A DNA stretch of 64,000 nt, taken from Solimonas variicoloris DSM 15731 (GTDB taxonomy: Bacteria; Pseudomonadota; Gammaproteobacteria; Nevskiales; Nevskiaceae). The position numbers and the translations under genes are program-made. Positions within the stretch are counted from its first letter, which is position 1, and every line of letters starts with the position of its first letter. The stretch is taken from contig NZ_KB907935.1 in NCBI RefSeq assembly GCF_000382285.1, positions 1 through 64,000 of the forward strand. The letters are read 5' to 3'. Under the pieces are notes generated by a model that was given only the letters and a program-made list of their open reading frames with translations, searched no databases and was not told the origin of the DNA. This document shows positions 58,278 through 63,273 of the stretch, piece by piece.

Positions 58278-58353
58278 GGGGCGGTAGCTCAGCTGGGAGA
58301 GCGTCGCGTTCGCAATGCGAAGGTCGAGGGTTCGATCCCCTTCCGCTCCACCA
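58278..58353 (+). tRNA. tRNA-Ala (anticodon CGC)
   Basis: The cloverleaf folds well. The 7-bp acceptor GGGGCGG/CCGCTCC has one G-T pair. The anticodon stem is TCGCG/TGCGA with loop TTCGCAA, giving anticodon CGC (Ala, codon GCG). The T-arm is GAGGG-TTCGATC-CCCTT, and an encoded CCA closes the gene. A TAGAAT -10 hexamer at 58258-58263 lies 14 bases upstream; I see no good -35. Its 3' part is the integration site of the following element. Confidence 0.97.
58304..58353 (+). repeat. attachment site attL (50-bp direct repeat, in tRNA-Ala)
   Basis: These 50 bases, from the anticodon stem to the CCA, are identical to 63224-63273. The flanking bases differ on both sides. Confidence 0.95.
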
Positions 58354-58362
58354 TTTTATCCA

Positions 58363-58407
58363 GCAAAAACAGCGTTTTACATATTGCAATGTAAGGCGCT
58401 GTTTTGC
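58363..58407 (+). terminator. hairpin just downstream of the tRNA, brought in by the element
   Basis: AAAACAGCG (58366-58374) pairs with CGCTGTTTT (58397-58405). Inside it TTACAT pairs with ATGTAA around a 6-base loop. The stem lies 10 bases after the tRNA and could end its transcript in place of the original terminator, now at 63285. Confidence 0.5.
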
Positions 58408-58408
58408 G

Positions 58409-58783
58409 TTATATAGCTTTATTTCGCATTGCAAGTGCACCAAATTTGCACCAAAACCCGGATGCAGATTCCTGCGCACAGTGCATGACAGCGCAGCGCA
58501 TCGCGGCTACCATCTGCTGCGACGCGCTGAAACCACAGAAGACGGCTTCGAGAAAAGCCAAAGGCGAGCAACCGTAGCGAGGTTGCCCTCGCCTACAGAC
58601 GAAAGCCGCGAGGTTGTTCAGCAGCCGGCCAACCCCGTAAGCGGAAGGGACGCCGGCCAGAAAGGATGCCGATCCGGCGCCCACACGTATGGGCCGATGC
58701 CGTAGAGCAATCGCCATGAATCGCCTTCGGGCGTTGCGGATACCACCGGTCAGGATGAGGCCGGAATAAAACGGTAGCCGCAC
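58409..58783 (-). CDS. possible Ash-like (phage P4 type) protein; doubtful
   Basis: The 124-codon frame includes MVAAMRCAVMH and GFWCKFGALAMRN. These recall the Ash family coded near the immunity region of P4-like satellites; the resemblance is from memory. It overlaps the hairpin-rich segment and a second open frame (58593-58853) on the same strand. It may be coding or a by-product of the structured region. Confidence 0.3.
   Translation of the reverse strand: MRLPFYSGLILTGGIRNARRRFMAIALRHRPIRVGAGSASFLAGVPSAYGVGRLLNNLAAFVCRRGQPRYGCSPLAFLEAVFCGFSASQQMVAAMRCAVMHCAQESASGFWCKFGALAMRNKAI
58436..58456 (+). promoter_or_regulatory. candidate integrase arm-type sites, left end
   Basis: Two copies of TGCACCAAA lie at 58436 and 58447, 11 bases apart and in the same orientation. 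Two similar copies with the same spacing lie near the right end at 63159 and 63170. Confidence 0.5.
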
Positions 58784-58820
58784 ATGGAGAGCGCCGACCG
58801 TGGGGCACAGCCCCGCTGCG
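58540..58820. ncRNA. hairpin-rich segment, candidate structured RNA
   Basis: Several stems can be seen by eye. GGCGAG-CAACC (58563-58573) pairs with GGTTG and CTCGCC (58581-58593). GCCGGC at the start and end of 58624-58657 pair with each other. GCCC and GGGC (58678-58693) flank ACACGTAT. CGCC-TTCG-GGCG near 58722-58733 is a tetraloop hairpin, and GGGG-CACA-GCCC lies at 58802-58814. Strand and boundaries are unknown. I know no matching RNA family; tmRNA and RNase P signatures are absent. Confidence 0.4.
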
Positions 58821-58927
58821 TAGTGCCCGAGCTGATTTGAGCCTTGCGCTCATTCGGGTAAGACGCGGCCCGCGGACTCATCCGACCTCGACCGGTTTTG
58901 GCTGGTCAAGTTCGGAGATGTTTGCCG

Positions 58928-59251
58928 ATGAAATCCCTTCTGACCGTAGAGCAGCTTTCGCTCTTGCTGCACAAGTCTGTTACCACAATCCGCAGCGACG
59001 TAGTACGCAATCCCCTTTCCCTCCCGCCCATTTGCCGACTACCGAACACCAAGCGGCTGCTATGGCGGGCCGAAGACGTTGAGCGCTGGCTAGCCGAGCA
59101 CGTAGCCGGAATGCACACTGCCGCCGCCTTTGATCAACGCCAGCAACGTCGGCGGCGCGGTCGGCCGACAAAAGCCGAGCAGGTCGCGCGCCAGCGCAAT
59201 CAGCAACTGCCCATTGCTTCGGGCGCCAGCAGCCCGGCGCGGGAGTCGTGA
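58928..59251 (+). CDS. AlpA/excisionase-like helix-turn-helix protein
   Basis: The 107-residue protein starts MKSLLTVEQLSLLLHKS and ends its domain in LLWRAEDVERWLAEHV, the usual form of MerR/AlpA-type DNA-binding proteins (HTH_17). A basic tail RQQRRRRGRPTKAEQ follows. In integrated elements such proteins turn on excision or act as excisionase. It leads a two-gene unit; the next ATG is 1 base past its stop. Confidence 0.75.
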   Translation: MKSLLTVEQLSLLLHKSVTTIRSDVVRNPLSLPPICRLPNTKRLLWRAEDVERWLAEHVAGMHTAAAFDQRQQRRRRGRPTKAEQVARQRNQQLPIASGASSPARES

Positions 59252-61380: not shown

Positions 61381-61614
61381 TCAAATTGGTTTCGTCATGC
61401 CGCCGGGAACGCTTTTGACCAACTCATCGTTATCGTCGTAGCCGATTGCGTGGCCACTGGCGACAAGCCGCTCTACGTGGCGTTCCAATTCTTCGCCGGG
61501 CACAGCCATCTGGTCTAGGAAGTCGAGTTTTTCGGCGGCCGTGAGACTATCGGGACTGATGAGGCCCCGTAGCGCTGCGGCGGTTTTCTCGTTCGGCGCG
61601 ATTGGCTCGGGCAT
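61381..61614 (-). CDS. small acidic protein of unknown function
   Basis: The 77-residue protein starts MPEPIAPNEKTAAALRGLIS and holds SLTAAEKLDFLDQM and EELERHVERLVASG. GGAG lies 7 bases before the ATG, and a 16-bp palindrome lies just before that. It may be an antitoxin- or regulator-type protein, but I see no DNA-binding motif. Confidence 0.6.
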   Translation of the reverse strand: MPEPIAPNEKTAAALRGLISPDSLTAAEKLDFLDQMAVPGEELERHVERLVASGHAIGYDDNDELVKSVPGGMTKPI

Positions 61615-62018
61615 GGACGTACTCCAAGTTTCGCATGCGAAACCATATGCGCATTTTACTAGATGCGACCAACGCCTCCATGCAAGGATGAATCATTCGA
61701 GCATTGCCGGATCGTGTGGAAGATATACAGAGCGCGAAAAGCAATGAAGCTTCGCCAATCATCCATAGACGCAAAACCAACGCTCCGCTTTGCGGGTTCC
61801 CTCATTCTTCACACCTGATGCCCAGGTGTTGGGCGGTACAGGCGCGAACTTTCCTTCGGAAAATCAGTACAGAGCAGCATCAAAAGCGTTACACAAGCCG
61901 CCTCGCATTTGTGGCACAAACGTTCCACGGCAAAAGAAGAACGAATAAAATCATTGGATTATGATTTTGCAAATCAGCCGAAATGCAAAGCTCATTTTCG
62001 AGCGGAAAGCCTCGTCGT
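61615..62018. other. AT-richer non-coding stretch before the integrase 3' end
   Basis: I see no credible gene here. It holds the palindrome at 61628, a 7-bp hairpin ACACCTG/CAGGTGT at 61811-61829, and an AT-rich hairpin AAAATCAT/ATGATTTT at 61947-61968. The last has T-rich sequence after it on the minus strand and may end the integrase transcript. Confidence 0.6.
61628..61643. promoter_or_regulatory. 16-bp palindrome before the small-protein pair
   Basis: GTTTCGCATGCGAAAC is perfect and lies 14 bases upstream of the ATG at 61614, touching the ribosome site. It could be an operator or an mRNA hairpin. Confidence 0.6.
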
Positions 62019-63134
62019 TTATGCCAACCGCTTCGCCAAATCCTCGGCGCGAGGATGGTAGTAGCGCATGAGCATGCGAGGGTCTTTATGCCCGGTGATC
62101 TTCGCCAGTTCGTGCAGCGGAAAGATTGAGGCCAGGCGAGAAGTGGCTTCATGCCGAAGATCATGGAATCGGAGGTCGGCTAGAAAGTGGTCGTCGGGCC
62201 TGCTCTCCGCCTCCTTGCATTCTTGAGCGTAGAGCCGACGCGCACGAACGACGGCGCGTTCGAAAGCACGGGTAACGGCATCACCCGAAATTCCGAAAAC
62301 ACGGCCGGTGTCCCCTTCCTCCGCAGCCTCGGCTTCCTTATCGTGAGCCGCCTTTAACGGTTTCAGGATTGCAATGGCTCGCGGCGAAAGGGGCACGTTG
62401 CGGGCAGCGCCGTTCTTGGTCGTGGGCAAGTGAGCAACGCGAGCCTTGAGGTTCACGTGCTCCCATCGCAGGTCAACGATTTCGCCGCGACGCATGGCCG
62501 TTTCCACTGCAAACTGGATGATCGAAGGCAGCAGTGATGATTCGCTGGCGGCGCTGACACGCTCAAGCTCGCCGTCCTTCGCGCGGCGGCTCGATTTCAC
62601 ATCATCCCTGCGTCGGGGAAGTGACGAACAGACCGCGAGGCGCCGCGTGCGCGCGTTATTCGGCTGCGGCTTGCGAACCAGCTCGACCGGGTTTAGTAGG
62701 CTCTCCATGCCCCATTCCTTGCGTGCAATATTGAACACATGGGACAGCACCGCAAGGCGGCGCAACACCGTGGCTGGCTTGCAGTCCTTAAGCCATTCGT
62801 CACGGAGTGCGGCGACATCGGCGCTGCGGATGCTGGCAAGGAACCGCTTGGCAAGCTCTGTGGACATGCAGAGCTTGATAACGGACTTCTCTTGAACGGA
62901 ACCCTTTTTCGACGCTGTGATCTCGCGCTCGTAACGAAGCAGGGCATCGTGCAGCGTGGTGGACTCAGCTTCACTGCGGCTGAGCCACACGCCGCGCGAC
63001 ATCTCCGACTCGATCATCTTGGCCCACGCCTCGGCCTCGACTTTCGTGTTGAAAGTCTTGCTCTGCGAAGGGAAACCGCGATGCCGGATCAATACTCGCC
63101 ACTGATACGGACCACGTTTGGTGATGTTTGCCAT
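62019..63134 (-). CDS. tyrosine site-specific integrase
   Basis: This is a 371-residue recombinase. It has an N-terminal arm-binding domain (MANITKRGPYQWRVLIRHRG), a core-binding domain, and a catalytic domain with Arg in ETAMRRGE, HDLRHEATSRL (His-x-x-Arg), ITGHKDPRM and the nucleophilic Tyr in MRYYHP. An insert of about 20 residues sits between the core-binding and catalytic domains (about residues 165-185). It lies at the right end of the element with its start 90 bases from attR. It recombines the tRNA-Ala site. I chose the ATG at 63134; an ATG 8 codons upstream exists. Confidence 0.93.
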   Translation of the reverse strand: MANITKRGPYQWRVLIRHRGFPSQSKTFNTKVEAEAWAKMIESEMSRGVWLSRSEAESTTLHDALLRYEREITASKKGSVQEKSVIKLCMSTELAKRFLASIRSADVAALRDEWLKDCKPATVLRRLAVLSHVFNIARKEWGMESLLNPVELVRKPQPNNARTRRLAVCSSLPRRRDDVKSSRRAKDGELERVSAASESSLLPSIIQFAVETAMRRGEIVDLRWEHVNLKARVAHLPTTKNGAARNVPLSPRAIAILKPLKAAHDKEAEAAEEGDTGRVFGISGDAVTRAFERAVVRARRLYAQECKEAESRPDDHFLADLRFHDLRHEATSRLASIFPLHELAKITGHKDPRMLMRYYHPRAEDLAKRLA

Positions 63135-63158
63135 TGGAGTAGCCCACTCTGCAGTCAC

Positions 63159-63179
63159 TGCACCAAAATTGTACCAAAT
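63159..63179 (+). promoter_or_regulatory. candidate integrase arm-type sites, right end
   Basis: TGCACCAAAA (63159) and TGTACCAAAT (63170) are 11 bases apart, in the same orientation and spacing as the pair at 58436. They lie just upstream of the integrase gene. Confidence 0.5.
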
Positions 63180-63223
63180 AAGGGTTGAAATTCAATAAGT
63201 GATTGATATTTATGAATACTAAT

Positions 63224-63273
63224 TCGCGTTCGCAATGCGAAGGTCGAGGGTTCGATCCCCTTCCGCTCCACCA
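63224..63273 (+). repeat. attachment site attR (50-bp direct repeat)
   Basis: This is an exact copy of tRNA-Ala bases 27-76 (58304-58353), including CCA. It lacks the 5' half, so it cannot make a tRNA. Confidence 0.95.

Follow-up and report, generated by a model that had tools for sequence, protein, structure and literature searches.

Replication of integrative and mobilizable elements (IMEs) after their excision was called never studied in 2017 (PMC5704250) and was later demonstrated for Salmonella genomic island 1 (SGI1), where the vegetative origin, oriV, lies just downstream of rep and contains, besides four direct repeats and one inverted repeat, six putative DnaA sites (PMC7826253). Here, we describe a 4.9-kb block of Solimonas variicoloris DSM 15731 that lies between a transfer RNA gene, tRNA-Ala(CGC), and a repeat of its 3' part, and in which a Rep-like gene is followed by a putative origin of comparable layout. 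The block belongs to the window, by which we mean the whole 64,000-nucleotide stretch analyzed (positions 1-64,000 of contig 11 of the 4.1-Mb genome). We put at about two in three the probability of a compact integrative element with a plasmid-type replicon, one that behaves as a plasmid when excised. Its ends, target site, gene set, AlpA-Rep homology, and shared origin architecture were all read from sequence. The comparison drew on 57 further family genomes, 368 further class genomes, plasmids, viral contigs, and 50,697 phage records; G037-G046 denote comparison genomes (G041 is Solimonas soli DSM 21787, of the same genus), and labels in L denote compared loci or elements, among them the S. 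soli island (L011/L034, also L022), the Burkholderia singularis island (L030), and a Nitrosospira multiformis contig (L033).

The intact tRNA-Ala(CGC) on the left (attL) side spans 58278-58353 on the forward strand (ARAGORN; Rfam tRNA, 63 bits). A repeat search found its positions 27-76 (58304-58353, +) again at 63224-63273 (+), with 50 of 50 letters identical and a spacing of 4920 bp, which leaves the tRNA on the left complete and makes the right copy (attR), a sequence present once in eight congeners, the displaced 3' part of the gene. Chance cannot plausibly account for 50 exactly repeated bp at this spacing; the next longest repeats in the region are imperfect, at most 31 nt long, and about 70% identical. 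A terminator-like hairpin (63286-63310) stands immediately 3' of the right copy, as expected of the displaced natural 3' end of a tRNA gene. The enclosed DNA has a G+C content of 58.0%, versus 68.7% on its left and 70.3% on its right, which bears out the first-pass annotation of a low-GC block bounded by a tRNA repeat. Slightly inside both ends lie two 20-bp direct repeats that are 90% identical (TGCACCAAATTTGCACCAAA at 58436-58455 and TGCACCAAAATTGTACCAAA at 63159-63178, both +) and may serve as arm-type sites of the integrase; an analogous 22-bp pair is found inside the ends of the B. singularis island.

The 371-residue tyrosine integrase (62019-63134, -; Phage_integrase 6e-23, phrog_1 3e-54) retains the catalytic motifs R/HxxR/H/Y. 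As had been noticed from the letters, it sits at the end distant from the intact tRNA; it would adjoin attP in the predicted circle, and the same orientation recurs in the S. soli and L013 elements. An integrase 65% identical in amino acids is encoded on two Paraburkholderia terrae plasmids (L052:8962-10083), with no Rep or AlpA relative nearby. The block thus has the features of a tRNA-targeted island of the Islander type: a tyrosine integrase within, a regenerated target tRNA, a displaced 3' fragment at the far end, and an uninterrupted site in relatives, the last seen in eight congeners (G039-G046). Each of these has a single, continuous tRNA-Ala across the computed empty junction, with alignments of 86-94% over ~120-130 bp whose right side stops within ~7 bp of the tRNA. 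The closest genome, G038, holds a different, unrelated 42-kb island in the same tRNA-Ala; its left flank is 95% identical over 617 bp, and its right flank is the LON-domain gene that also stands to the right of the window element. Because of the exact repeat, the eight empty sites, and this second island between the same flanks, the ends and the integration site are, at the level of sequence, secure, and the site is taken by more than one element.

The islands at tRNA-Ala(CGC) in G038 (C2:138328-138413, 138548-138626, and 180510-180557) and likewise in G037 (C11) appear to split the tRNA and to supply a complete replacement tRNA-Ala. The G038 island has metal-resistance-type genes, as judged by reading its open reading frames (ORFs).

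The core of the element is a pair of forward genes. The first encodes a 107-residue AlpA/excisionase-like small helix-turn-helix protein (58928-59251; phrog_66 excisionase 4e-5, phrog_6355 5e-16, HTH_17 below its cut-off), and directly after its stop begins the gene for a 186-residue Rep-like winged-helix protein (59253-59813), which is supported by homologs, a structural model, and weak matches to replication-initiation PHROG families; the earlier label of "replication-type protein" fits it. The AlphaFold2 model of Rep, built from nine sequences, has a mean predicted local distance difference test score of 77, with a confident winged-helix core followed by a C-terminal helix and hairpin. The PHROG matches of Rep relatives are to replication initiators and to helicase-loader or DnaD-like loader families. 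Rep has no above-threshold match to a described initiator family (Rep_3, RepA, RepL, and others), and its role as a putative initiator is read from context and weak profile matches, not from fold.

Behind rep lies a putative origin of replication (59832-60003, +), in which a DnaA-like box (59832-59840) is followed by three dyad repeats (59863-59878, 59895-59911, and 59927-59943), an AT-rich block (59955-59976), and a second DnaA-like box (59995-60003). The dyads are copies of GCGGCA...TGCCGC, the first imperfect, that start exactly 32 bp apart (59863, 59895, and 59927). Judged from its sequence and from the comparative analysis, this segment has the layout of iteron origins and of the SGI1 oriV, and the elements of an iteron replicon (an initiator gene with adjacent repeats, an AT-rich segment, and DnaA boxes) are all present. 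In the S. soli island, L012, and L013, whose Reps are 36-54% identical to that of the window, CGG-centered dyads stand in register with the window dyads and are followed by a C-run and AGATAAA, so that among the four elements the three dyads, the C-run/AGATAAA block, and the flanking boxes all align. A common dyad sequence was sought and rejected: the motif GGCACCACRTGC was seen downstream of rep only in the window and in L014, which implies that the architecture is conserved and not the letters. Several copies of GGTATCACCCATGATACC follow rep in L033, and several CCCTTATnnnTAAGGG dyads lie between DnaA boxes in a Polaromonas plasmid.

The enrichment of boxes was measured in 360 bp around the Rep stop of 11 loci, with the expectation taken from whole-locus density. 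DnaA-like boxes with at most one mismatch number 24 versus 2.15 expected, an ~11-fold enrichment, and exact DnaA boxes 13 versus 0.45; the Poisson p values are ~1e-15 and below, which overstates the independent evidence since the loci are related. As a control, we scored boxes and dyads in windows that follow the other ORFs of each locus. None of 49 matches the box count of the window element, none does in S. soli, L012, L013, L014, or Polaromonas, one does in Glaciimonas, and a few do in B. singularis, Paraburkholderia, and Nitrosospira; in 7 of the 11 loci, the window element included, at most one such control reaches the count. Dyad pairs exceed all 300 shuffles in six of the 11 loci, again including the window.

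An alignment scan for Rep found relatives in B. singularis, Glaciimonas, Paraburkholderia humisilvae, and Nitrosospira, and relatives also occur in 4 of the 57 other genomes of the family. A class-wide search with the Rep alignment returned, besides the window, only short generic winged-helix matches. An AlpA-like gene stands directly 5' of rep in most relatives, with the two genes adjacent or overlapping in S. soli, L012, L013, B. singularis, Glaciimonas, and Paraburkholderia; L014 and L033 have none. The neighbors of rep are TraH and TraG_N in L013 (the corresponding L012 ORFs were judged by reading only) and T4SS-DNA_transf, a VirD4-type coupling protein of type IV secretion systems (T4SSs), in L014. 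TrbL is found beside the module in L030, L031, and L032, and relaxases lie near it in L030 (MobA/MobL) and L032 (VirD2-type, with a NikA-like protein). The B. singularis island could be delimited as 11.2 kb in tRNA-Lys with a 52-nt repeat, and it includes the MobA/MobL relaxase and TrbL genes. In S. soli, the module neighbors DruE/DpdE/DrmMI-type defence genes. More distant Rep relatives adjoin parA on Polaromonas pA29BJ2 and on Acinetobacter baumannii pRBH2-3, the latter a phage-plasmid because it encodes an N4-gp56-family capsid protein. Given these conjugation, relaxase, and parA or plasmid neighborhoods, the AlpA-Rep lineage appears, by sequence comparison, to travel mainly with conjugative, mobilizable, and plasmid elements and not with classical phage satellites.

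Several of these loci have features of their own. The S. soli island (G041:C4 ~211020-238449) interrupts tRNA-Arg(TCT) at a core sequence of 12 bp, GCCTTCTAAGCC, and rebuilds the tRNA at neither end (L011:5020-5065, L011:6219-6295, and L022 ~1501-1545); beside the integrase, it has a complete tRNA-Arg(TCT) of its own, which makes it the island equivalent of tRNA-dependent lysogeny (PMC10865867). L013 similarly has a tRNA-Arg 3' fragment and its own tRNA-Arg. The S. soli cargo (L034:95-17430) may be a hybrid defence system: it encodes DruE-like and DpdE-like helicases, a DrmMI-like methyltransferase, and a PDC-S49-like protein. In N. multiformis (L033:1-8457), rep follows genes read as capsid-protease- and capsid-like, and a ParA-like gene lies at the opposite end of the 8.5-kb contig, which may be a phage-plasmid.

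Upstream of alpA, a non-coding leader of 433 nt (58495-58927, +) folds far better than shuffled sequences (z = -3.7, versus -2.0 on the other strand); it matches no Rfam family and has no DNA relative among the 57 family genomes. A reading of the leader as a hidden gene or as an immunity RNA like that of P4 was dropped after Rfam, Pfam, a P4 comparison, and a class-wide search yielded weak, scattered matches only; it may be an oriT (origin of transfer), a regulatory RNA, or neither. Beyond rep, a controller (C) protein-type XRE regulator (60076-60324, -; HTH_3 3e-16, PADLOC Control_protein 7e-16) is separated by 60325-60410 from an orphan predicted lipoprotein of 230 residues (60411-61103, +), which we regard as cargo; it has a LAAC lipobox and no convincing family, and no relative turned up in the 368 class genomes, plasmids, or viral contigs. 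The intergenic region contains a perfect palindrome, CCGACTATAGTCGG (60361-60374), a candidate XRE operator that we take to resemble the C-boxes of restriction-modification systems; no restriction gene is present. Two small ORFs of 94 (61069-61353, -) and 77 residues (61381-61614, -) are open frames only. The gene set of the first-pass annotation (integrase, AlpA-like, replication-type, and orphan lipoprotein) therefore stands, except that its XRE repressor is nearest to restriction-modification controller proteins and not to a typical phage repressor.

From these parts we propose a tentative life cycle. The integrase, helped by the AlpA-like protein as excision factor, would recombine the 50-bp tRNA repeats to yield a 4920-bp circle and a restored tRNA-Ala locus. 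Rep may bind the three 32-bp-spaced dyads directly behind its gene and, jointly with host DnaA on the flanking boxes, open the AT-rich block, and the excised circle would then replicate transiently by a theta, iteron-type mechanism and thereby escape loss. The controller-type XRE protein probably controls its own gene and the divergent lipoprotein cargo. Transfer would depend on a helper, because no recognizable relaxase, coupling-protein, or mating-pore gene is present, and would most likely proceed by conjugative hitch-hiking via an unrecognized origin of transfer (oriT), given descent from elements of the integrative and conjugative element (ICE) or IME type. Profile scans of the block ORFs gave no match to relaxase, coupling-protein, mating-pore, capsid, terminase, or primase families, in line with the earlier statement that capsid and transfer genes are absent; the relaxase result is profile-based, so an unfamiliar relaxase type would escape it. 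In terms of element classes, the block has the integration and excision genes of an IME (integrase and AlpA-like) and no relaxase of its own, and it has none of the relaxase, coupling protein, and mating pore of an ICE. IMEs carrying only an oriT and no relaxase have been described in the literature.

Several results weigh against a plasmid-like element. No other genome is known to carry the whole block. Clean empty sites and recurrence of the block as a unit had been proposed as its tests, and of these the former exist in eight congeners, whereas only the AlpA-Rep-origin module recurs. Both DnaA-like boxes of the window have one mismatch. Its dyad score is ordinary for so GC-rich a locus, being reached by 15 of the 49 windows behind other ORFs, so that the box count alone is unusual and the dyads, whose shuffle-based statistic weakens in this control, count by arrangement and not by score. 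In the Acinetobacter phage-plasmid, which has no DnaA box behind rep, neither the dyad nor the DnaA statistic holds, and in B. singularis both are weak. Rep has only sub-threshold matches in Pfam and NCBIfam, as do its relatives in NCBIfam, and a Foldseek search with the model returned generic winged helices only and no specific fold relative. No oriT was recognized in the block, which also lacks a recognized relaxase, and a profile search of the whole host genome found no T4SS coupling protein; hence, no resident conjugative helper is recognized.

Confinement to one genome would also suit a deletion remnant of a larger ICE or IME that kept its integration and replication genes and is stranded, at most excising and replicating within its host. 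The relaxase, TrbL, TraH/TraG, or VirD4 genes that relatives bear beside the same AlpA-Rep module fit such a history, yet the core genes have open frames, the two end repeats match perfectly (50/50), and no transfer-gene pseudogene was recognized inside the block; we consider a remnant unlikely.

Less probable still is a satellite of the phage-inducible chromosomal island (PICI) or phage-inducible chromosomal minimalist island (PICMI) type, in which the integrase and AlpA would excise the element, Rep would amplify it, and a helper phage would package it although the satellite itself codes for no capsid genes. Both the size and the int-alpA-replication gene set agree with this, the PICMI prototype being 6.1 kb with int, alpA, and prim and without capsid-remodelling genes (PMC10803314); a jumbo phage can move tmRNA-site islands with IntY and AlpA (PMC12595487), and a distant Rep relative lies on the N4-like phage-plasmid. 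However, int and alpA come here without the primase (prim/pri-rep) of Gram-negative PICIs and PICMIs, and no alpha primase-helicase, sid, delta, or psu of P4-like satellites, nor any other capsid-remodelling gene, was recognized in the block. Rep, the lipoprotein, and the leader have no relative in viral contigs, the window Rep and the element DNA are unmatched among the 50,697 phage records (tblastn and blastn), and most Rep relatives accompany conjugation genes. A phage origin, sought in the same records and in viral contigs with Rep, the lipoprotein, and the leader frame, yielded nothing convincing. Of the two options first offered, "satellite" is the less probable, with no packaging or primase gene and no phage-borne Rep relative except the distant one.

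We doubt most that the dyad array serves as a centromere for partition or as a cluster of operators, with the winged-helix protein acting in partition or regulation instead of as an initiator: parA adjoins the winged-helix gene in both plasmids and in L014, and the fold matches are generic transcription-factor winged helices, but, by ORF reading, no parA was recognized in the window element or next to the rep genes of S. soli, B. singularis, and Paraburkholderia, a centromere needs neither the DnaA boxes nor the AT-rich block that are best conserved here, and the PHROG families matched are those of replication initiators and helicase loaders.

We thus favor the compact integrative element with a plasmid-type replicon: "plasmid-like," the other option first offered, agrees with an initiator-like gene and an iteron-like, DnaA-box origin common to ICE/IME-like islands and a plasmid. 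As a further and decidedly tentative step, the winged-helix Rep and its three-dyad, DnaA-flanked origin may constitute an undescribed replicon family of ICEs, IMEs, defence islands, plasmids, and a phage-plasmid, with the 4.9-kb element as its minimal natural form, an integrating mini-plasmid spreading by oriT mimicry alone. The window element and its relatives would provide a second Rep-origin unit, unrelated to that of SGI1, with clear boundaries and clonable whole, and could permit a direct test of how small an integrating element can be and still excise, replicate, and hitch-hike. Because Rep is unnamed by Pfam or NCBIfam, Rep and its origin could also serve as a marker for finding more such elements.

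Set beside known systems, the element resembles SGI1 and those other IMEs that replicate in the manner of plasmids (PMC7826253, PMC5704250), which are likewise chromosomal islands with an integrase and an excision factor that need a helper for transfer; in SGI1, too, rep is directly followed by an oriV with repeats, an AT-rich block, and DnaA boxes. SGI1 is far larger, however, uses a Rep_3 RepA, encodes transfer proteins, and is induced by IncC AcaCD, whereas the window element has a Rep of a different winged-helix family and no recognized transfer protein. The B. singularis tRNA-Lys island shares the integrase (36% identity), the AlpA-Rep pair (Rep 26-30%), and tRNA 3' repeats with arm-like sites inside, and differs in its MobA/MobL relaxase, TrbL, TIR-like protein, target tRNA, and integrase adjoining the intact tRNA. 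The 27-kb S. soli island has the nearest Rep (53-54%), an AlpA-like protein, an XRE regulator, the same integrase orientation, and the conserved origin block; unlike the window element, it splits tRNA-Arg, bears its own tRNA-Arg, and holds DruE/DpdE/DrmMI-like defence cargo. PICI, PICMI, and P4-like satellites are alike in combining an integrase, AlpA, a replication gene, and origin repeats at small size without capsid genes, whereas the window element has no recognized primase or helper-phage interaction genes and its relatives are conjugative or plasmid-borne. Finally, the IntY/AlpA islands at tmRNA sites that are moved by a jumbo phage (PMC12595487) also join a tyrosine integrase and AlpA to an RNA-gene target without autonomous transfer genes, but they occupy a different site, are larger, and have other core genes (RadC, YqaJ, and Gp2-like).

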